DNA from: Pseudoxanthomonas suwonensis
GTDB taxonomy: Bacteria > Pseudomonadota > Gammaproteobacteria > Xanthomonadales > Xanthomonadaceae
Assembly: GCF_000972865.1 (NCBI RefSeq)
Contig: NZ_CP011144.1
Span: 1,054,001-1,118,000, forward strand
Direction: 5' to 3'
Length of the DNA: 64,000 nucleotides
This document shows positions 6,180 through 17,075 of this stretch, in pieces (position 1 is the stretch's first letter; each line of letters begins with the position of its first letter). Below the pieces are notes generated by a model. That model saw nothing but the letters and a program-made list of their open reading frames with translations, was not told where the DNA came from and searched no databases. Both the position numbers and the translations under genes were made by a program.

Positions 6180-6509
6180 ATGTTTGCTCGCATCGCCGTA
6201 GTCGCGGCCGCGCTGGCCGTCATCCCTTCCACCTTCGCCAAGGAACCCGGCATCGCCGACTTCGCGCGCGAGACGGGCTTCAAGGAACGCCACGTCCGCA
6301 TGGTCGTGGGCGCCCCTGCCGCCTTCGCCGAATACCGCACGTCCTACAAGCGCGTCGTGCGCGAGATGAAGGCAGCGCTCGGCCCGGAAGGCTACAGGCA
6401 CCTGGTCGATGGCAACCTCACCGCTGCGATCGAGATCCAGCGCGCGCACGCCGCCGATGCCGCAATCGCCGCCAACAGCCGCGAAGGCCAGCGGCAACCG
6501 GAAGGCTGA
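6180..6509 (+). CDS. Small exported protein, paralogue of the one at 7706-8059
   Basis: A 109-residue protein of unknown function. A signal peptide (MFARIAVVAAALAVIPSTFA, cut before KEPG) is followed by a helical region FARETGFKERHVRMVVGA..., a YRTSYKRVVREMKAALG stretch and GYRHLVDGNLT. The ETG....HVR.V.GA....YR....LG...Y..L..G pattern is shared with the protein at 7706-8059, so the two are paralogues. The ETGFKERHVRMVVG segment looks like a helix-turn-helix repressor segment, yet the protein appears exported. The start is supported by an AGGAGG-type site immediately upstream. It is convergent with the YdjM-like gene, 17 bp apart. Confidence 0.75.
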   Translation: MFARIAVVAAALAVIPSTFAKEPGIADFARETGFKERHVRMVVGAPAAFAEYRTSYKRVVREMKAALGPEGYRHLVDGNLTAAIEIQRAHAADAAIAANSREGQRQPEG

Positions 6510-7705: not shown

Positions 7706-8059
7706 ATGAAAACCCCGCTGATCGCCTTCGTACTGTTCGCCGCCGTCCCCTTCGCCTCCGCCCAGGAGACCAGGGAACCGGCTCCCATCGACGTGGCCCC
7801 GCAGGTCCAGCCGCTGACCGTCCGCATGCTGGCCGACGAGACCGGCCTGTCCCCGCAGCATGTGCGCGTGGTGCTGGGTGCCCGCAGCCTCCATCCCCAC
7901 TACCGCAGCAAGGAGCAGCAGTTCCGCCAGGCGCTGGGCGAGGATCGCTACCAGGACCTGCTGGCCGGGCAACCGATCAAACTGCGCAACCAGCCCGTGC
8001 AAGGGCAAGGCCTGGCGGTGGCGACGGAAGCGTCCCGGGACAGGAAGGAACGTCCGTAG
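7706..8059 (+). CDS. Small exported protein, paralogue of the one at 6180-6509
   Basis: A 117-residue protein of unknown function. The signal peptide MKTPLIAFVLFAAVPFASA precedes a short linker and LTVRMLADETGLSPQHVRVV, then LGARSLHPHYRSKEQQFRQ, LGEDRYQDLLAG and a basic, Gln-rich tail. The core aligns with the protein at 6180-6509 through ETG, HVR.V.GA, YR, LG...Y..L..G. ADETGLSPQHVRVVLG resembles a LacI-type helix-turn-helix, unusual for an exported protein. The start has GGAG eleven bases upstream. It lies 370 bp upstream of the sigma/kinase operon on the same strand; whether that operon controls it is unknown. Confidence 0.75.
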   Translation: MKTPLIAFVLFAAVPFASAQETREPAPIDVAPQVQPLTVRMLADETGLSPQHVRVVLGARSLHPHYRSKEQQFRQALGEDRYQDLLAGQPIKLRNQPVQGQGLAVATEASRDRKERP

Positions 8060-8429
8060 GCCGGCAGCCTGGCGGCCGGCCCGGCCACCATGCCGTGGAT
8101 GCCCACCCGCAGGATGTTTCCACACCATGTTCCCGCACCGGCGGCCGATCCCGCCGGCGCGGGGCCGGGCGGCCAGGCCCCGGGACGCACTGTGCAGGCC
8201 CACCGGCTGCGAGTCTTGCCCCCGCGGGGGCGAGGACACGGGGATTGCCGCCGCTGCCGCCGCGAAGGAGCGGAACTCCGGAAGACGGGAGCGGCGTTAC
8301 CGGTACCGCGGCGCTCTCTCCCCGCGGCGCCGGTCCTTTATGCTCGCGCCGGCGGACCCGCCTTGGCCGCCCGGGTCCGCCGATTGCGTTGTCGATACCA
8401 CCTCTGGGGAACGAGGGAGTGATCCGGAC
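8060..8429 (+). other. Leader region of the sigma/kinase/receptor operon
   Basis: A 370-bp stretch with no convincing gene. It is very GC-rich with several short palindromes, for example near 8060-8090 and 8150-8185. It must contain the promoter of the downstream operon. No canonical -35/-10 pair is evident, as would be expected if a dedicated sigma factor drives it. GAGGGA at 8413-8418 is the ribosome binding site of the first sigma gene. Confidence 0.5.
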
Positions 8430-9161
8430 ATGTTCCGCACTACGCGTTGGAGCCTCGTGATCGGAACCCGCGCCGACTCCGCCGACGGACGCGAGGCCCT
8501 GGACACCCTGTGCCGCATCTACCGCTCCCCGGTGACGGCCTACCTGCGTGCGCACGGCTATTCGCCCAGCGATGCCGAGGACATGACCCAGGCCTTCTTC
8601 GAGCAGCTCCTGCTTCGCCGGATGCATGCGGCAGCCGATCCGGAACGCGGACGCTTCCGTGCGTTCCTGCTCACCGCGCTCAAGCGCTTCCTGGTCAACC
8701 AGCACGAACGCGAGCAGGCGTGCAAGCGCGGTGGCGGCCTGCGGATGGTGGCCCTGGAGCCGGAGCCGGAGCCGGACCTGGCCGACGGACGCACCCCGAG
8801 CCCGGAAGAGGCATTCGAGCGCGACTATGCGCTGACGGTGATCGCCCGGGCCCTGGCCAGGCTGCGCGACGAAGCCGTGCACGCCGGCAAGGCCGACCTG
8901 TTCGACCAGGTCAGCGCTTTCCTGCTGGAGCCGCCGGACGCCAGCGAGTACACCGCCCTGGCCGAGAAGCTCGACCTGCGCCGCAACACCCTGGCCGTCG
9001 CCATCCACCGCCTGCGCAACCGGCTGCGCGACATGGTCCGGTTCGAACTCAGCGAAACCGTGGACGGACCCGATGGACTCGACGCCGAGATGGCGGCGCT
9101 GCGCAAGGCGCTCGCGGTCCGCCGGGCGCAACCGCGATACGCATACGACAGCACCGGATAG
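8430..9161 (+). CDS. ECF-type RNA polymerase sigma factor 1
   Basis: A 243-residue sigma-70 family protein with regions 2 and 4 only. It opens with FRTTRWSLVIGTRA, typical of the kinase-associated ECF groups. Region 2 spans about residues 25-95, with DAEDMTQAFFEQLL as the core-binding segment and FRAFLLTALKRFLVNQ after it. An acidic Pro/Glu linker follows, and region 4 spans about 130-205, with YTALAEKLDLRRNTLAVAIH as the helix-turn-helix. The start was chosen at the ATG behind GAGGGA; the frame extends far upstream without sigma similarity. No anti-sigma factor is adjacent. The next genes are a second sigma-like protein and a transmembrane Ser/Thr kinase, so phosphorylation-based control is plausible, as for ECF43-type EcfP/PknT. 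Confidence 0.88.
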   Translation: MFRTTRWSLVIGTRADSADGREALDTLCRIYRSPVTAYLRAHGYSPSDAEDMTQAFFEQLLLRRMHAAADPERGRFRAFLLTALKRFLVNQHEREQACKRGGGLRMVALEPEPEPDLADGRTPSPEEAFERDYALTVIARALARLRDEAVHAGKADLFDQVSAFLLEPPDASEYTALAEKLDLRRNTLAVAIHRLRNRLRDMVRFELSETVDGPDGLDAEMAALRKALAVRRAQPRYAYDSTG

Positions 9162-9196
9162 CCGCCGAGGTCCATGAAACGGGGGAGCGCTGGGCG

Positions 9197-9931
9197 ATGA
9201 CCGAAACCAGGATTCCGGAACACCCTGCCGCCGTGCGGTTCGCCGACACGCGCTGGACCCTGGTGGGTACGGCGGCGCGGGGCGAGCGCCTCGAGGCCAG
9301 GCGCGCGCTGCTCGAGCTGTGCCTGCAGTACTGGTATCCGGTCTACGCCTACCTGCGGCGATGCGGCCACGCGCCGCTCCTGGCCGAGGACATCGCCTGC
9401 GCGTTCTTCCGCGACCTGGTGCATTCACGGCTGCCGCTGGCATCGGTGCCGACGCAGACCCGCTTCCGGGATTTCCTGCTCGAGTCGTTGCACCACTTCC
9501 TGGCGACGGACTGGCGGCGGATGGAAAACCCGGGTGGGCCGGCCGACGCCCTGCAGGGACCTGCCATCGAGGATCTGGAAGCGCGGCACCGGCGCGAATC
9601 GCCGGCGGCGTCGGCTTCGCTCGCGTTCCATCGCGGCTACGCCCTGGAGCTGATCGCGAGCGCACACCGGCGCCTGTCACTGGAAGCGGCCCACGCCGGT
9701 CGCGGCCCGATGTACCAAGCACTGGCGCCGTTCCTCGCAACCCCGCCGGAGCCGGGCACGCTCGAGTCGCTCGCACAGCGGCTCTCGACCCGGCCGCTGG
9801 TGCTGGCCATCGCCCTCAAGCGCCTGCGCCAGCGGTTCCAGGAACTGGTCCACGACGAACTCGCGCAGACGGTCAGCGATGCGGCCGGGCTCGAACGCGA
9901 GCGGCTCGAACTGCTGGCGGTGCTGCAATGA
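9197..9931 (+). CDS. ECF-type sigma factor 2 (diverged paralogue)
   Basis: A 244-residue protein with the same layout as the preceding sigma factor: FADTRWTLVGTAARG at the N-terminus, a region-2-like part containing LAEDIACAFFRDLV and RFRDFLLESLHHFLATDWRR, a linker, and a region-4-like C-terminus ending RLSTRPLVLAIALKRLRQRF. Identity to sigma 1 is low, and the usual DAED..Q motif is altered (no Asp before Ala, Cys for Gln). It may be an active sigma factor of different specificity or a sigma-like regulator. The start at 9197 has GGGGGAG upstream. Its TGA overlaps the kinase ATG (ATGA at 9928-9931), showing translational coupling. Confidence 0.8.
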   Translation: MTETRIPEHPAAVRFADTRWTLVGTAARGERLEARRALLELCLQYWYPVYAYLRRCGHAPLLAEDIACAFFRDLVHSRLPLASVPTQTRFRDFLLESLHHFLATDWRRMENPGGPADALQGPAIEDLEARHRRESPAASASLAFHRGYALELIASAHRRLSLEAAHAGRGPMYQALAPFLATPPEPGTLESLAQRLSTRPLVLAIALKRLRQRFQELVHDELAQTVSDAAGLERERLELLAVLQ

Positions 9932-12900
9932 GTACCACCCGCGACGGCCCGCAACACCCGGATCCCGCGGCGATCGCCGCGCTGGCGTCGCTGGCGTTCG
10001 GCTCCTCCGGCGTCCGCACCGCGGTGGCGGGAACGGCCACGCGCCACCTGGCCTTCCTCCCGATCGAGGCCCTCGAGCTGGACCTGTCCGATCCGGAACA
10101 GCGCGACTTCGGCGACTACGAGCTGCTGGAACGGCTGGGCGCCGGTGGAATGGGCGTGGTGTACCGGGCGCTGCAGAAGAGCCTGGACCGCGAGGTGGCG
10201 CTGAAGCTGCTGTCGGCCGGTCCCTGGGCCTCGGCGGATTTCATCGAGCGCTTCCGGCGCGAGGCGCAGTCGGCCGCCCGGCTCGAGCACCCGAACATCG
10301 TCGCCATCCACGAGATCGGCAGCCGCGACGAGCTCAACTACTTCTCGATGGCGCTGGTGCGCGGGCCCAACCTGGCGCAGCTGCTGGAGCGCGACGGCGC
10401 CCTGCCCGCGTGGCAGGCCGCGCGTCTGATGCGCACGATCGCCGAAGCCCTGCACTACGCGCACCGGCTGGGCGTGCTGCACCTGGATCTGAAGCCGGGC
10501 AACGTGCTGATCGATCCGCAGGGCGAGCCGCAGGTGGCCGACTTCGGCCTGGCCCGGCGCATCGACAGCACCCTGGCGATCGACGGCGACGAAGTCTCCG
10601 GCACGCCGAGCTACATGGCCCCGGAGCAGATCGAGCTCAAGCGGGCGCGGCTGAGCGTGGCCACCGACATCTACGGCCTCGGCGCGATCCTCTACGAACT
10701 GCTCACCGGGCATCCGCCGTTCGACGCGCCCACGCCGAAGGAAATCCTCGCGCTGGCGCTGAACGGCACGATCCGCCGGCCGCGGCGCTACCGCGCCGAC
10801 ATCCCGGAGGACCTGGAGGCGATCTGCCTGAAGTGCCTGGCGCGCGAACCGGGCGAGCGCTATCCGAGCGCGCAGGCGCTGGCCGACGACCTGGGCCGGT
10901 TCCTGGAGGGCCGCGCGGTCAGCGTGCGCCCGCTTTCGGCGCCGCAGCGGCTGGCCCGCTGGGCGCGCCGCGAACCCAGGCTGGTCGGCGCGCTGGCGAT
11001 GGGCCTGCTGGCGCTGCTGACCGGACTGGCGGCCGCGCTGGTCCAGCGCGAGCGCGCGCTCGAAAGCGCCACCGCGGCCCGCGAGCAGACCTGGGCCACG
11101 CGCGCCGACGCGGCATGGCGCCTGGTGCAGCAGGGACGCGGCATCGATGCGAAGGCGCTGCTGCTGGACAACCTGGCCGAGCTCGAGGCGCAGGGCGACG
11201 GCGATGGCGCCAGGCTCGAACGCCTGCGCCTGGGAACGCTGGCGGAGAACGGACCGCGTCTGATCGACGCCATCGCCACCGGCGTGTCCGGCCGTGCGGT
11301 GGACATCGATCCGGCCGGCGAGCGCGTGGCGGTGATCGGCCTGGACGAACAGGTGCACCTCTACGACGTGGCCGACGGCCGCCGGTCCTGGCTGACTGCG
11401 ACCGCCCACGAGGCCGGCTTCCGCGCGCAGGGCCTGCCGCCGACCCGGGTCCGGTTCAGCGCCGACGGCCGCTACCTGGTGAGCGCCACCTTCGAACCGG
11501 GGACCTTCCTGATTCCGCACGGCCGCAACAACGTACTGCTCGATGCGCGGGACGGCCGCCTGGTCATGCCGCCCGAGGACCGCTTCCCGGACCGGCTCGA
11601 TGCCACCTTCGGCTCGGATGGCCGCTACGCGGTGCTGCGCGACCGCAACGGCCACGCCCAGTATTTCCGCGTCGAAGGCTGGGAACCCCAGGGACCCAGG
11701 TTGCCGATGCCGAGCATGGCCGGAAGCTGGATGGTGGGCGACGACGGCCGCTTCGTCGCGCGCAGCGCCAACCACCGGATCGAGCTGCTGGACACCGCCA
11801 CGTTCGAACCCAGGTTCGCGCACCAGTTCGATACGGCCGACGGGCCCAGCCACTGGGCGGCGCAGCCGGGCGGCTCGCTGCTGGCGCTCGGGCACCTGGA
11901 CGGCAGCGTGCGGCTGCTCGACAGCATCAGCCTGGCCATGCGCGAGCTGCGTCCGGCACCGCCGGCCGGGATCAGCGCGCTGGCCTTCAGCAACGAGGGC
12001 GACTTGCTGCTCGCCGCCACCCGCGGGCACGTGTTCGTGTGGGACGTCGCCACCGGCCACGGCGGCATGCTGCCCGCCACCCGCCAGCTGGATGCCATGC
12101 GCCTGCAGGCCGACTCGGCGACCGGCACGGTGTTCGCGCTGGCGCCGGACGACGCGATGCTGTGGCGGCTGGCCGACGCGCCAAGCGGTGCCTTCGACAT
12201 GCGCGCGCGCGTCATGAACGCGCGCATGCTGGTCACCCAGTTCGGCTTCGGCAACCCGCTCCCGCGCAACGCCGCGGCCTATGCGCCGGCCGCCAACCTC
12301 GCCGCCAGCCTCGAACGCAACGGCGAACTGCGCCTGTGGCGCTGGCGCGATCCGCGCCCGCTGCCTGGCCGCGCGCCGGGACAGACCACCGAGACGCTGT
12401 ATTTCGACGGCCGCCATGCCGCGATCGTGGAAGGCGGTACCGTCCGGATCGTCGACGTCGCCGACGGACTCGACGCGGCGCCGGCACTCGTGCATCCCGG
12501 CCCGGTCTCTCTGGCATCGTTCACGCCCGATGGCGCCACGCTGGTCACGGTCAGCGGACGCGAACTGCGCATGCTCGACTGGCGCGCCGGCAAGGAGCGC
12601 CATCCGCCCGTGCTGCTGGCCGACTCGCCGCTCCGCGTCGCGATCGGCCCCGACTCGACGATCCTGCTCGCCACCACCGGCGCCTACGTCGAAGGCCGCT
12701 TCCGGGAGCTGGCCTCGAGCTTCGACCTGCGCGACGGCAGCGTCCTGGCGCGGGATGTGCCACTGCCCGGGCCGCTGGCGGGCCTGCGCTTCAGCCCCGA
12801 CGGCCGCCACCTGGTCCACTGGCGCTACGGGGAACTGGAAGTGCGCGATGCCGCCAGCCTGCAGCCGGTCGCCGCGCCGGCGCGGTTCGGCCCGGACATG

Positions 12901-14277
12901 GCCGCCGCACGCGACGCCCCGGAGGCGGGGACGCCACAGGCCAACGCCCTGCACCAGCCCGGCGAAACCCCGGTTTTCGATGCCGCGGTATCGAACGACG
13001 GTTCGCGCGTCACCCTGCTGCTGTACGGCAGCGAGCCGGACAAGCCCAGGCTGGTCCAGGTCCACGCGCGGACGCAGGAAATCCTGCGTTCGCAGCCGCT
13101 CCCGTTCGGGGTGTACTCGCGGCTGTGGCCGAGGGGGGACGCCTACGACTTCGGCATCTGGACCGGCGCATCCGGCGCGGCCCACTTGATGGACAGCGAC
13201 GGCCGAAGCCGCCCGCTGTCACTGGCCGGCGGAACCCAGCTGGTGGCCCAGGCCACCAGCCGGGACCAGCGCTGGGTGGCCGCCGGCAGCAAGACCGGGG
13301 TCGCGCTCGCCGAGCGGGGGAGCGGGCGGTGGGCATCCGCTCCGTTGGTCGCGCACCTGGCCGCGGGCGACGGCATCACCCAGCTGGCCTTCGCCGCCGA
13401 CGGCAACAGCCTTCTCGCACGCACCCAGTACGGCGCGTGGATCTGGTGGCCGCTGGTGCCGGATGCGCGGCCGACGCAGCGGATATCGCGCCATCTCGCC
13501 TACCTGACCGCCACCGCCTCCGAACGCGCGCCCATCGCCTCGCCCATGGAAGCGGGCGAGCGGCGGGAGCTGCGCGAAACCGATCCGGGCACGCACAGGC
13601 GCTCGGCGGGAGCGCCCGCGACCGTGGAACTGGCCACGCACGCCGCCACGCGGGACCGGTCCGGAGGGATCCCCATCGACCTGACGGCTGCCGTCAACCG
13701 TCCAACCGATGCGTTCGACCTGACCGCCATCGAAGGCGACCTCGGCCTCGCCGGCGTGCCAGCCGGGAGCCAGCGCCTGCTCGGCGTCGATTTCGACATC
13801 GCGGGCGTGGTCGCCCTGCGCATGCCGGAAGCCCCGCAGCCATCGCTCGGACTGCCGGCCTCGTCGCCGGAGGTGCCGTTCGCGGCGTCGCGCATCGCCG
13901 CGGTCCACGTGCTGCTCGGCGGCTGCTGCCCGTTGCCGGCCAAGCCGGACGGCCCCTACGCCTACCTCAACCTGCGCTATGCCGATGCGACATCCGCGCG
14001 GATTCCGATCGTGCATCGCACGCACATGTGGTTCTTCGGCGGGGACCCCGGGGACGGCGAGCATGCGAGGATCGCCTGGGTGGCGACGTTCCCGTCGGGC
14101 GACATGATCTACCTGTACGGGCCGCGCCTGGAAAACCCGCACCCGGAGCGGGAGGTGGTCGCGCTCTCGTTCGAGGCGTCCGAGTACTTCGCCAGCAGCC
14201 CGCTGGTGTTCGCCGCGACCGCCGAACCGGCGCACGACGCGGCCGGATCGCTGCCGCCCGGCATGGCGCCGCCATGA
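9928..14277 (+). CDS. Transmembrane Ser/Thr protein kinase with periplasmic beta-propeller
   Basis: 1449 residues. A 60-residue N-terminal extension precedes a Hanks-type kinase domain (about 64-330): LGAGGMGVVYRA glycine loop, K93 in VALKLL, HLDLKPGNVL with D187, DFGLAR at 205-210, GTPSYMAPEQ activation-loop end. A single membrane segment lies at about 352-372. About 900 residues of WD40/PD40-like blades follow (repeated FS.DGRYLV, DGSVRLLDS, FTPDGATLVTVSG), placing a propeller in the periplasm. A last domain of about 190 residues contains RLLGVDFDIAGVVALR, LNLRYADATSARIPIV and ENPHPEREVVAL. It resembles beta-sandwich domains that end sigma-linked kinases in Planctomycetes and Verrucomicrobia. 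It overlaps both neighbours by ATGA and probably reports an envelope signal to the sigma factors. Confidence 0.88.
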   Translation: MSTTRDGPQHPDPAAIAALASLAFGSSGVRTAVAGTATRHLAFLPIEALELDLSDPEQRDFGDYELLERLGAGGMGVVYRALQKSLDREVALKLLSAGPWASADFIERFRREAQSAARLEHPNIVAIHEIGSRDELNYFSMALVRGPNLAQLLERDGALPAWQAARLMRTIAEALHYAHRLGVLHLDLKPGNVLIDPQGEPQVADFGLARRIDSTLAIDGDEVSGTPSYMAPEQIELKRARLSVATDIYGLGAILYELLTGHPPFDAPTPKEILALALNGTIRRPRRYRADIPEDLEAICLKCLAREPGERYPSAQALADDLGRFLEGRAVSVRPLSAPQRLARWARREPRLVGALAMGLLALLTGLAAALVQRERALESATAAREQTWATRADAAWRLVQQGRGIDAKALLLDNLAELEAQGDGDGARLERLRLGTLAENGPRLIDAIATGVSGRAVDIDPAGERVAVIGLDEQVHLYDVADGRRSWLTATAHEAGFRAQGLPPTRVRFSADGRYLVSATFEPGTFLIPHGRNNVLLDARDGRLVMPPEDRFPDRLDATFGSDGRYAVLRDRNGHAQYFRVEGWEPQGPRLPMPSMAGSWMVGDDGRFVARSANHRIELLDTATFEPRFAHQFDTADGPSHWAAQPGGSLLALGHLDGSVRLLDSISLAMRELRPAPPAGISALAFSNEGDLLLAATRGHVFVWDVATGHGGMLPATRQLDAMRLQADSATGTVFALAPDDAMLWRLADAPSGAFDMRARVMNARMLVTQFGFGNPLPRNAAAYAPAANLAASLERNGELRLWRWRDPRPLPGRAPGQTTETLYFDGRHAAIVEGGTVRIVDVADGLDAAPALVHPGPVSLASFTPDGATLVTVSGRELRMLDWRAGKERHPPVLLADSPLRVAIGPDSTILLATTGAYVEGRFRELASSFDLRDGSVLARDVPLPGPLAGLRFSPDGRHLVHWRYGELEVRDAASLQPVAAPARFGPDMAAARDAPEAGTPQANALHQPGETPVFDAAVSNDGSRVTLLLYGSEPDKPRLVQVHARTQEILRSQPLPFGVYSRLWPRGDAYDFGIWTGASGAAHLMDSDGRSRPLSLAGGTQLVAQATSRDQRWVAAGSKTGVALAERGSGRWASAPLVAHLAAGDGITQLAFAADGNSLLARTQYGAWIWWPLVPDARPTQRISRHLAYLTATASERAPIASPMEAGERRELRETDPGTHRRSAGAPATVELATHAATRDRSGGIPIDLTAAVNRPTDAFDLTAIEGDLGLAGVPAGSQRLLGVDFDIAGVVALRMPEAPQPSLGLPASSPEVPFAASRIAAVHVLLGGCCPLPAKPDGPYAYLNLRYADATSARIPIVHRTHMWFFGGDPGDGEHARIAWVATFPSGDMIYLYGPRLENPHPEREVVALSFEASEYFASSPLVFAATAEPAHDAAGSLPPGMAPP

Positions 14278-17075
14278 CCCTCGCCCCGCCCTTGGTGCTG
14301 GCCCTGGCGCTGCACGATCCGGCCGCCACCGGCGGCGATGCCACGCCCGGCAGCACCACCGCCACGCTGCAGACCGTCGAGGTCACCGGCAGCCATATCC
14401 GTCGGGTCGAGTTCGAGACCGCGCATCCGCTGCTGGTGCTGGACCGCGAGCGGCTGCGGCGCACCGGCCTGAACACCCTGGGCGAGGTGCTGCAGCAACT
14501 GCCGCAGCACGTCGCCGGCCTCAACACCGATTTCAACAACGGCGGCAACGGCGAGACCTACGTCGACCTGCGCAACCTCGGCTCCTTCCGCACTCTGGTG
14601 CTGCTCAACGGCCGCCGCTACGTCGCCGGCATCGACGGATCGGTGGATGTCAGCAGCATCCCGCTGGCGATCGTCGAGCGCGTGGAGGTGCTGACCGACG
14701 GCGCGTCGGCGATCTACGGCTCCGACGCGATCGGCGGCGTGGTCAACATCATCACCCGCAACGACTACGACGGGATGGAGGCCGGCGCCCAGTACGCCAC
14801 CAGCGAATACGGCGACGGCCAGCGCCGCGCCGCCGACTTCAGCTGGGGCCATGACGGGGAGCGCGGCGGCGTGGCGGCCAGCCTGTCCTATGCCGACCAG
14901 CAGCCGGTCTGGGCAGGCGACCGTGCGATTTCGTCGGTCCCGGTCTATGGCCTGCCTGCCAACGACGTGCTGGGCCGGGCATCGTTCCTCACCCCGGACG
15001 GCAGTTTCGCCTTCGGCCCCGGCGGCAACCTGCGGCCCGACGGCCGCCCCGGCCGCACGACCTGGGACGCGGCCATCGGCGACTACCGCCCGTTCAATCC
15101 ACGGCAGGACTCCTACAACTACGCCCCCGAGAACTACCTGCGCACGCCCTACCAGCGGCTTTCCCTGTTCGCGACGGCGCAGCGGACGCTGCCCGGAGAG
15201 GCGAGCCTGCGCGCCGGCCTGCTGCTGCAGCGCCGCCGTTCGGCCCAGGAACTGGCGCCCACGCCGATCGTCCAGTACGGCGGCGGGAATCCCGGCGATG
15301 CGAACATCTCCAGCGAAAGCCTGTACAACCCGTTCGGCCAGCCGGTCACCCAGTTCAGCTTCCGCCCCCTGAACCAATCGCGGCGAAAGGAACAGGATGC
15401 GCTGAGCCACAACGCCTCGGTCGGACTGGAGGGCGTGCTGACGCTGGGGTCGCAACCGCTGGACTGGCGGTTCGACCTGGTCGACGCACGCGCCCGCATC
15501 GACCACGGCTACAACGGCGGCTACGACCTCCGGCGCCTGGCTGCGGGCATCGGCCCCTCGTTCCTCGATGCCCAGGGCAGGCCGCGTTGCGGCACGCCGT
15601 CCAGCCCGGTCGCGGACTGCCTGCCGCTGGACTTCCTGCATGGCCGCGACGGGTTCACGGATGCGATGTTCGACTACCTCAAGGTGGACGGGGAAGCATG
15701 GCTGCGCGAGGAGCGCGGCCTGCGCGACGCCACCTTCGCCGTCAGCGCCGCCCCGTTCCGCCTGCCCGCCGGCCAGTTGGCCATGGCAGCCGGCCTGGAG
15801 TGGCGCGAGGAGCGCGGGCGCATCACGATGGACCCGCTGCTGGCCGACGACCGTTTCGATTTCGGCGGATTCGGCGCCGACCCGGTCGACAGCCGGATCC
15901 GCGTGCGCGAAGCCTGGCTCGAACTGGACCTGCCGCTGCTGGCCGGAAAGCCGTGGGCCGAAGTGCTGTCGCTCAGCCTGGCCGCGCGCCATTCCCGCTA
16001 TTCGAGCTTCGGCGCCACCACCAACGGCAAGCTGGGTGCGGTCTGGCGCCCGCACGCCGGGCTGCTGCTGCGCGGCACCTGGTCCAGCGGCTTCCGTGCC
16101 CCATCGCCCAGCGAACTGTACGGATTCAGCGGCATGACCCAGCTGCCCGCCATGGCCGCGGCGCTGGATCCCTGCCTGGTCCCCGCCAATCCGGCCGTCG
16201 CGGCGCGCTGCCATGCCGACGGCGTACCGGCCGACGGTTTCGATCCGCCGATGGGCCCCAGGGTCCAGTTCGGCTCCAATCCCGGACTGCAGCCCGAGCG
16301 CGCGCGAAACCGCAACCTGGGGGTGGTATGGAGCCCCGATCCGGTCCCGGGACTGGGCCTGAGCCTGGACTGGTGGCGGATCCGGCTGTTCGACACCATC
16401 GCCGAGATCCCGATCATGCAGTTGCCGGCCATGTGCTACCTGCAGGGACTGGCCGGCGCCTGCCAGCAGCTGGCCCGCGACCCGGCCACCGGCACGCTGA
16501 CGGAAATCGACGGACGCCTGCGCAACTACGGCACCTACGAACTGGAGGGCTACGACGTCTCGGCGTCCTATCGTCGCGACCTGCCCTGGGGCCGGCTGCA
16601 ACTCCGCTGGGACAGCGTGTACCTGGACCGCTTCCTCTCGGAGGTGCCGGTGGGCGCGCCGCCCACCCAGTCGGCGGGCAACTACTTCATGCTCGATCCC
16701 GGCTGGCGCCTGCGCTCGGTACTCTCGCTGGACTGGGACCGCGAACGGCTCGGCGCCACCTTGCGCCTGCGCCATTATTCGCCGCTCGACGAAAGCTGCG
16801 TGACGCCCACCGTGGCCGGTCGTCCCGAGCTGTGCAGCGGCGGCGTCGACCAGGATCCGGCGTTCCCAGGCCAGCCCGTGCACGTCATCGCCGCGCGGAC
16901 ATATACCGACCTGCAACTGCGCTGGCGCTGGGGAGCCGCGCAGTTCGCCCTGGGCGTGAACAACGCCTTCGACCTCGATCCGCCGGTGTCGTACGACGCC
17001 TATGCGAACTCCTACGATCCCAGCTACGACATCCCCGGCCGCTTCTGGCACATGAGCTATCGCCAGCGCTTCTGA
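14274..17075 (+). CDS. TonB-dependent receptor coupled to the kinase operon
   Basis: A 933-residue outer-membrane receptor. After a short hydrophobic N-terminus (MTLAPPLVLALALHD, a weak signal peptide without basic residues) comes VEVTGSHIRR, a TonB-box-like start. The plug domain contains TYVDLRNLGSFRTLVLLNGR and VEVLTDGASAIYGSDAIGGV. A 22-strand-type barrel follows, with WSSGFRAPSPSELYG and a C-terminal Phe (YRQRF). There is no N-terminal STN/FecR-interacting domain, so it is not a Fec-type transducer. Its ATG overlaps the kinase TGA (ATGA at 14274-14277). It is therefore the last gene of the sigma-sigma-kinase-receptor operon and either imports the signal molecule or is itself the product needed when the signal is sensed. 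The substrate is unknown. Confidence 0.9.
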   Translation: MTLAPPLVLALALHDPAATGGDATPGSTTATLQTVEVTGSHIRRVEFETAHPLLVLDRERLRRTGLNTLGEVLQQLPQHVAGLNTDFNNGGNGETYVDLRNLGSFRTLVLLNGRRYVAGIDGSVDVSSIPLAIVERVEVLTDGASAIYGSDAIGGVVNIITRNDYDGMEAGAQYATSEYGDGQRRAADFSWGHDGERGGVAASLSYADQQPVWAGDRAISSVPVYGLPANDVLGRASFLTPDGSFAFGPGGNLRPDGRPGRTTWDAAIGDYRPFNPRQDSYNYAPENYLRTPYQRLSLFATAQRTLPGEASLRAGLLLQRRRSAQELAPTPIVQYGGGNPGDANISSESLYNPFGQPVTQFSFRPLNQSRRKEQDALSHNASVGLEGVLTLGSQPLDWRFDLVDARARIDHGYNGGYDLRRLAAGIGPSFLDAQGRPRCGTPSSPVADCLPLDFLHGRDGFTDAMFDYLKVDGEAWLREERGLRDATFAVSAAPFRLPAGQLAMAAGLEWREERGRITMDPLLADDRFDFGGFGADPVDSRIRVREAWLELDLPLLAGKPWAEVLSLSLAARHSRYSSFGATTNGKLGAVWRPHAGLLLRGTWSSGFRAPSPSELYGFSGMTQLPAMAAALDPCLVPANPAVAARCHADGVPADGFDPPMGPRVQFGSNPGLQPERARNRNLGVVWSPDPVPGLGLSLDWWRIRLFDTIAEIPIMQLPAMCYLQGLAGACQQLARDPATGTLTEIDGRLRNYGTYELEGYDVSASYRRDLPWGRLQLRWDSVYLDRFLSEVPVGAPPTQSAGNYFMLDPGWRLRSVLSLDWDRERLGATLRLRHYSPLDESCVTPTVAGRPELCSGGVDQDPAFPGQPVHVIAARTYTDLQLRWRWGAAQFALGVNNAFDLDPPVSYDAYANSYDPSYDIPGRFWHMSYRQRF

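Follow-up and report, generated by a model that had tools for sequence, protein, structure and literature searches.

In a 64,000-nucleotide stretch of the Pseudoxanthomonas suwonensis genome (Xanthomonadales; Xanthomonadaceae), hereafter the window (contig NZ_CP011144.1, positions 1,054,001 to 1,118,000, part of a 3.89 Mb single-contig genome), we found a four-gene cassette in which an extracytoplasmic function (ECF) sigma factor, sigma1, is followed by a degenerate paralog, sigma2, a transmembrane Ser/Thr kinase and a TonB-dependent receptor (TBDR). Sigma2 appears from its sequence to be a sigma factor no longer, its presence goes with a short motif in the kinase N-terminal tail, and the input and output halves of the kinase have been inherited separately. 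Our preferred reading, which we regard as evenly poised between right and wrong, is that the cassette forms a module for kinase-based signalling from the cell surface, in which one regulator derives from a sigma factor without being one. All four genes have the positions given by a first-pass annotation of the same DNA, with a gap of 35 bp between the two sigma genes and ATGA overlaps joining sigma2 to the kinase (9928-9931) and the kinase to the TBDR (14274-14277).

That annotation had called both small proteins ECF-type sigma factors, which holds for sigma1, while sigma2 proved not to be its equal. By the sigma-70 region 2 profile, sigma1 is an ECF sigma factor: Pfam Sigma70_r2 was detected in 30/30 sigma1 relatives at E up to 0.01 (24.9 bits for the window protein, cut-off 24), the region 4 model matching only 4/30. 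In the conservation table it keeps the core-binding residues E50/D51 and Q54, K99-R100-G-G, and N186-T187 of the helix-turn-helix, and the acidic core-binding patch persists throughout its relatives (E or D at position 50 in 30/30, D51 in 30/30). Sigma2 is a sigma1 homolog (38% identity), and its predicted fold is sigma-like, the best matches being sigma factors held by anti-sigma factors, with modest Z scores. The sigma Pfam models that found all 30 sigma1 proteins matched 0/24 sigma2 proteins (E up to 0.01), PF04542 is carried by 1 of 120 listed database relatives, and the window sigma2 has no Pfam domain and one weak NCBIfam sigma match (E 0.004, far under its cut-off).

Residues in regions 2.4 and 4 of a sigma factor recognize the -10 and -35 promoter elements, respectively. 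E50, Q54, K85, KRGG, N186 and T187 are altered in most sigma2 members. Among the 120 database proteins, which are consensus-like top matches, position 50 is acidic in 6, N186 has become L in 118, H193 is K in all 120 and KRGG is not kept; the 26 sigma2 sequences from our loci follow the same trend of residue loss. Three loci with a weak second sigma (L058, L066 and L067) were kept out of the residue table and included in the motif, locus and tree counts. By these residues and profiles, sigma2 is a degenerate paralog and no recognizable sigma factor, with core-binding and DNA-binding residues lost or weakened in most relatives. It is under purifying selection, with a ratio of nonsynonymous to synonymous substitution rates of 0.38-0.45 in two pairs; a decaying pseudogene was rejected on these ratios and on the open reading frame in aligned relatives. 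Both proteins might instead be working sigma factors acting at different promoters, each switched by kinase phosphorylation, as the homology, the sigma-like fold, the retention of D51 in 115/120 and a conserved basic RLRQRF helix in sigma2 region 4, which could still bind DNA, would allow. Against this stand the missing profile matches and altered residues, together with the existence of sigma1-kinase loci without sigma2, the converse (a sigma2-kinase locus with sigma1 shown to be absent) not being seen among 57 sigma2 rows, with L161 read from a finer locus table; we consider two working sigma factors unlikely.

The first-pass annotation had also proposed control in the manner of EcfP/PknT of Vibrio and EcfK/PknS of Xanthomonas citri, the ECF43 pairs of PMC13147305. 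As described in PMC13147305 and PMC8999054, the acidic patch of EcfP/EcfK is replaced and a phospho-threonine restores the charge; PMC13147305 also gives additional phosphorylation sites in the EcfK linker and, for PknS, a periplasmic sensor with three TPR and 83 N-terminal residues ahead of the kinase domain. As in those systems, the sigma gene of the cassette, ECF-type, has as its neighbour the gene of a transmembrane Ser/Thr kinase, Hanks-type in both, with a periplasmic sensor and an N-terminal tail. The cassette differs in the acidic patch that sigma1 keeps, and it further has a second, degenerate sigma, a double propeller of WD40 type and a gene for an outer-membrane partner. With positions matched by motif and not by alignment to an ECF43 sequence, sigma1 has a charged patch in place of the uncharged patch with phospho-threonine, and the sigma2 position matching the switch is Q in 94, N in 12, E in 6, H in 3, Y in 2, R in 2 and G in 1 of 120 proteins, with Thr in 0/120. 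Neither protein therefore seems to fit the ECF43 phospho-threonine switch, and the proposal of such control was not borne out at the level of sequence. Because its acidic patch is already present, sigma1 would need no negative charge supplied by phosphorylation, and the ECF43 switch leaves unexplained how a sigma factor with its polymerase-binding charges intact comes under the control of a Ser/Thr kinase. Judging from residue conservation, linker residue S124 of sigma1, which precedes an invariant Pro and is S/T in 24/31 and D in 3/31 sequences, could be a target like T106 of EcfK, or a helix cap.

The kinase tail carries two short motifs, A and B (Table 1). Two-sigma kinases have a motif B like RHLAFLPxEALELDL ahead of the kinase domain, and one-sigma propeller kinases have a WW..ALARVAFG-like sequence in its place (WW in 7/7). 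A strict motif B pattern was found in 43/45 kinases that follow sigma2 versus 0/23 that follow sigma1 only, and a looser one in 45/45 versus 1/23 (L049), the pattern having been shaped on the same, related sequences, the count being restricted to kinases in which a pattern located the glycine loop, and 8 of the 23 one-sigma kinases coming from Planctomycetes, Verrucomicrobia and relatives. L043 is the most informative locus: its kinase domain groups with the one-sigma clade, yet sigma2 and motif B are both present. Divergent two-sigma loci with other sensors (L058, L066, L067) have motif B variants such as RPLAWLSPEEL. One further locus (L158, 8283-10696) has two sigma1-like genes and one sigma2, and its kinase tail has both WW..ALAQLAFG and HLAFLP motifs. 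Since the core-binding patch of sigma1 is intact, something should restrain it, and no FecR gene lies nearby; sigma2 could accordingly be imagined as an anti-sigma-like decoy binding sigma1 directly, with the kinase phosphorylating sigma1 only. Sigma1-kinase loci manage without sigma2, however, and motif B of the kinase follows sigma2, so that we hold a decoy of this kind to be decidedly improbable.

Comparing the kinase-domain tree (47 rows) with the sensor tree (30 rows), we found that the two disagree. The former needs 2 changes for sigma number and 4 for partner type, and the latter 5 and 1, respectively, sigma number being counted over the 30 sensor-bearing rows and partner type over the 22 rows with a known partner; alignment A3 holds 28 of the 30 sensor sequences (L064 and L065 left out), and L043 and L132 were left out of alignment A1. 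The kinase domain thus follows sigma number, and the double-propeller sensor follows the outer-membrane partner. That partner is either a TBDR or a pair made up of a secreted-looking protein, here called CGE (pattern ..ACGE..YRMGGALRYQAF..ILLYG..), and an outer-membrane beta-barrel, found 3' of the kinase in L041, L046, L126, L129, L130 and others and having weak, sub-threshold Pfam similarities only. The CGE/barrel loci form one sensor clade (9 rows, support 100/97), and no row scored has both a TBDR and CGE/barrel within 1.5 kb. The window agrees with this pattern: its kinase domain is closest to that of L037 (76.6%), its sensor to those of L049 and L055, and its TBDR to those of L120 and L037.

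The window TBDR has plug and barrel domains and no Pfam match to STN, as first annotated. The 49 codons displayed ahead of its ATG contain no start codon in frame, and there is no room for an STN domain because only 36 residues precede the VTGSH motif. Its N-terminus (14274-14320) is a short hydrophobic run, MTLAPPLVLALALHD, that lacks basic residues, in which it differs from the signal peptides that the linked TBDRs have in L037 and L048. Identity is 60% to the TBDR of L120 and 57-58% to that of L037. When the kinase-linked TBDRs were placed in a tree with 27 unlinked ones, 11/12 fell in one clade with support 99/99, the remaining one (L121) being unrelated; both strands were read, 27 of 28 unlinked loci were long enough, a TBDR fragment (L039) was left out, and the unlinked set consists of best matches kept as loci rather than all TBDRs of those genomes. 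No ligand was identified, the nearest solved relatives by sequence matching the plug only (BtuB). These data favour the earlier idea of a sensor and receptor that form a unit, because the sensor phylogeny tracks partner type and the linked TBDRs are one subfamily.

The TBDR could nevertheless be output only, co-expressed with the signalling genes while the kinase senses something else, which is a real possibility that we lean against. Co-expression alone would suffice for the kinase-TBDR overlap, the window sensor is closest to loci without an adjacent TBDR, and in Fec-type systems a TBDR that lacks STN is not known to signal. On the other side, one change in the sensor phylogeny splits TBDR from CGE/barrel loci, the linked TBDRs are a single subfamily, and one of them stands beside the kinase even at L120, where the order is reversed. 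Fec-type signalling (FecA-FecR-FecI) likewise brings a TBDR and an ECF sigma factor together, and the window has both in one operon. It differs from Fec-type systems in a receptor without STN and in a kinase occupying the membrane position where the anti-sigma factor would be. The absence of a FecR-like gene at the locus, noted before, was upheld: the genome has two FecR-domain matches, at distances of about 87 kb and 228 kb, and none adjacent. A Fec-type system with an unrecognized anti-sigma factor was already disfavoured and is hardly credible.

Conservation of the gene order had been named in advance as a test that could refute the grouping, and it passed, with the order sigma1-sigma2-kinase-TBDR recurring in other genera and in three families of the order. 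Chance adjacency is ruled out by the recurring order, the overlaps and the single TBDR subfamily; the 4-bp kinase-TBDR overlap is also found in L042, L044, L048 and L122. Sigma proteins of this kind are present in 23/198 genomes of the family, and locus maps place sigma1 and sigma2 together in 10/198, 7 of the 10 with a TBDR adjoining the kinase, in one of the 7 cut by a contig end (among the 10, the pair in G014 is split over two contigs and sigma1 of G078 was seen at that place by profile only). A sample of 398 genomes of the order added at least 12 genomes with the pair, at least 5 of them with a TBDR, these being lower bounds from up to 6 candidates scored per genome in fetched loci. Across 369 genomes of the class, 3 matched (up to 7 candidates scored per genome), all from the order. 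Among the best 80 matches of a scan for named contigs, the sigma pair was found in Pseudoxanthomonas, Luteimonas, Arenimonas, Rhodanobacter, Dokdonella and Rudaea, and also in metagenome bins whose names go no further than Lysobacterales, Proteobacteria or Gammaproteobacteria. Within the genus of the window the cassette is sporadic, sigma2 being present only in the window genome and G010 among the 9 genus genomes shown; a further Pseudoxanthomonas bin has sigma2 at L150.

Before counting, we dropped L063 (the same place as L120) and 19 named-scan contigs repeating genomes already fetched. The 57 sigma2 rows in distinct loci include the weak second sigmas of three loci and a lone, borderline match from Verrucomicrobia. 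A kinase lies directly 3' of sigma2 in 47, a contig end in 5, and none by our rule in 5, although one of these last (L156) has a kinase in a finer table. Next after the kinase in the 47 rows come a TBDR in 17, CGE plus barrel in 11, CGE alone in 1, a second kinase in 1, a contig end in 13 and none of these in 4; to these the finer table adds a barrel for L183, a CGE gene and a barrel gene that follow the second kinase of L160, and, in L186, a TBDR missed by the distance rule. At L120 the order runs TBDR-kinase-sigma1. Other arrangements include a sigma2-kinase locus beside LpxH-like and metK genes, as in the window, with no TBDR there (G078, L043), a second sigma1-kinase locus elsewhere with the closest relative (60%) of the window TBDR (G078, L120), and contigs on which the cassette occurs twice, complete or in part (L168, L188).

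Under the preferred reading of a kinase-based signalling module, the TBDR, or in sister loci the secreted CGE protein with its beta-barrel, would sit in the outer membrane, and the periplasmic double propeller would sense either the partner itself or whatever it brings in. The kinase catalytic domain would be cytoplasmic, and the N-terminal tail would dock the sigma proteins by short motifs, with motif B holding sigma2. Sigma1 would be the working output, binding RNA polymerase and promoters, and sigma2 a former sigma factor reused as a regulator on the kinase tail, where it would set the amount of free or active sigma1 through phosphorylation or docking. Topology, phosphorylation, direction of control, receptor sensing, docking and ligand are all inferred. 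A more specific version is sigma mimicry in a Ser/Thr-kinase system: no longer able to bind promoters and with its affinity for polymerase largely gone, sigma2 would compete with sigma1 for docking motifs on the tail; outer-membrane transport or ligand capture, read by the propeller, would change the kinase and lead to sigma2 being held or phosphorylated and sigma1 released; and input and output halves would be exchanged as modules. We offer this version as speculative and somewhat unlikely in its entirety.

Several observations weigh against the preferred reading. Sigma2 retains D51 in the 115 proteins noted above and Q54 in 23/120, so that some core binding by sigma2, on these residues, could persist. 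When the link between sigma2 and motif B was tested on independent, well-supported pairs in the kinase-domain tree (n = 4), about 3 agreed and 0 opposed, which is not significant (sign test p 0.25), the pattern used there also matching L069. L049 retains a loose match to motif B without sigma2, in a kinase that is in pieces, and L131 has sigma1-sigma2 with no kinase found. The window sensor is nearest those of L049 and L055, one-sigma loci without an adjacent TBDR, and the sensors of L050 and L051 fall in a TBDR-type clade with an adjacent TBDR likewise absent. Because related sensors occur without an adjacent TBDR in these two pairs of loci, sensor and receptor are not strictly tied; for L055, L050 and L051, the TBDRs found in the genomes searched come no nearer than 41% along their full length, or 50% along part of it. 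At L049 (G136, same genus as the window), the sigma1-kinase locus has a window-type sensor, the kinase and propeller are in separate frames, and sigma2 and the TBDR are missing.

ECF factors under kinase control, kinases with WD40 repeats and systems that couple a TBDR to a sigma factor are all known separately. In the open-licence literature to which the search was limited, we found no report of a sigma pair-kinase-receptor combination or of a degenerate sigma partner. PMC8999054 lists ECF59, 61, 62 and 217 as groups with Ser/Thr kinases, giving planctomycete examples, and PMC11032199 describes Planctomycetota WD40 kinases with a cytoplasmic kinase and WD40 arrays predicted to be periplasmic. 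Similar to these planctomycete-type systems, single sigma1-like genes with a kinase nearby occur in Verrucomicrobia and Planctomycetes; no sigma1-sigma2 pair was found in the loci fetched from them, where L193 is a single borderline lone match. In the alphaproteobacterial PhyR-NepR-EcfG system, according to PMC8999054, a sigma-like non-sigma protein steers a real sigma factor by mimicry. By analogy only, sigma2 could do likewise, but unlike PhyR it has no receiver domain that we found (244 residues, no Pfam domain), no NepR is known here, and its docking partner would be a Ser/Thr kinase tail. Given that a decayed sigma paralog and a matching kinase motif co-occur across an order, there are defined residues to test. 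The module suggests a route from STN-less TBDRs to transcription, and its two exchangeable outer-membrane partners are a natural comparison for finding the signal.

Table 1. Features of the cassette, in window coordinates
Feature	Position	Strand	Description	Basis
-10-like hexamer	8339-8344	+	TATGCT, possible housekeeping type, 85 bp 5' of sigma1; weak, 4/6 matches
Sigma1	8430-9161	+	ECF-type sigma factor, 243 residues	Pfam Sigma70_r2
Sigma2	9197-9931	+	degenerate sigma1 paralog, 244 residues	sequence comparison, predicted fold
Kinase	9928-14277	+	transmembrane Ser/Thr kinase, 1449 residues	Pfam Pkinase + WD40
Tail motif A	9976-10002	+	AALASLAFG, residues 17-25; one- and two-sigma kinases both carry variants
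Tail motif B	10042-10086	+	RHLAFLPIEALELDL, residues 39-53; goes with sigma2
Catalytic domain	10117-10887	+	VALK, HLDLKPGN (non-RD), DFG, APE	Pfam, motifs
Transmembrane segment	10981-11043	+	single, residues 352-372	hydropathy
Tandem propellers	11257-13452	+	WD40-type beta-propellers, about residues 444-1175, inferred periplasmic	model m0b0f0fc1575b (predicted local distance difference test 82.5), fold matches
C-terminal domain	13669-14229	+	beta-rich, about residues 1248-1434	predicted structure
TBDR	14274-17075	+	933 residues	Pfam plug + barrel

The window kinase has the glycine loop, VAIK lysine, HRD aspartate, DFG and APE of Hanks-type kinases. HLD replaces HRD (Arg to Leu) in 32/32 propeller kinases examined, and the DFG-to-APE pattern was found in 31/32, missed in L047. 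The sequence RWARREPR before the transmembrane segment suggests that the kinase N-terminus is inside. The sensor part, first described as a propeller of about 900 residues in the periplasm, is probably periplasmic as stated; in the predicted structure it begins with helices, continues with a pair of WD40-type propellers and has, set apart from these, a beta-rich domain at the C-terminus. This last domain has no convincing sequence family (best PDB E 0.62, best Pfam E 0.063 in 1/21 members); it was not modelled by itself, and the fold match lists cover mainly the propellers. Its conserved pattern is G.DYD.RG.v...Y.DGS..lPI..NPhP, and similar motifs presumably occur in planctomycete proteins.

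By eye, with no motif finder run, we found no conserved ECF autoregulatory promoter in the upstream regions inspected. A CATAAT/TATAGT-like -10 hexamer occurs in 8/29 of these regions, versus 1.24 expected from base shuffles, which is not decisive. Near the cassette, two small secreted-looking proteins of one family (6180-6509 and 7706-8059, both + strand; motif like HVRMVLGAR..YPEYR; no Pfam family matched) have relatives adjoining sigma-kinase loci in L037, L043, L049, L053, L054, L055, L120, L122 and L127. We rejected the 6180-6509 protein as a fifth component, its relatives being found in 36/198 family genomes, many without this sigma family, so that the link is partial. Long open frames at 9637-13185 (- strand, 1182 residues) and 9879-17075 (+ strand, 2398 residues) run antisense to or overlap the kinase and TBDR; the second shares its end with the TBDR, and the remainder of these frames is most likely an effect of high G+C.

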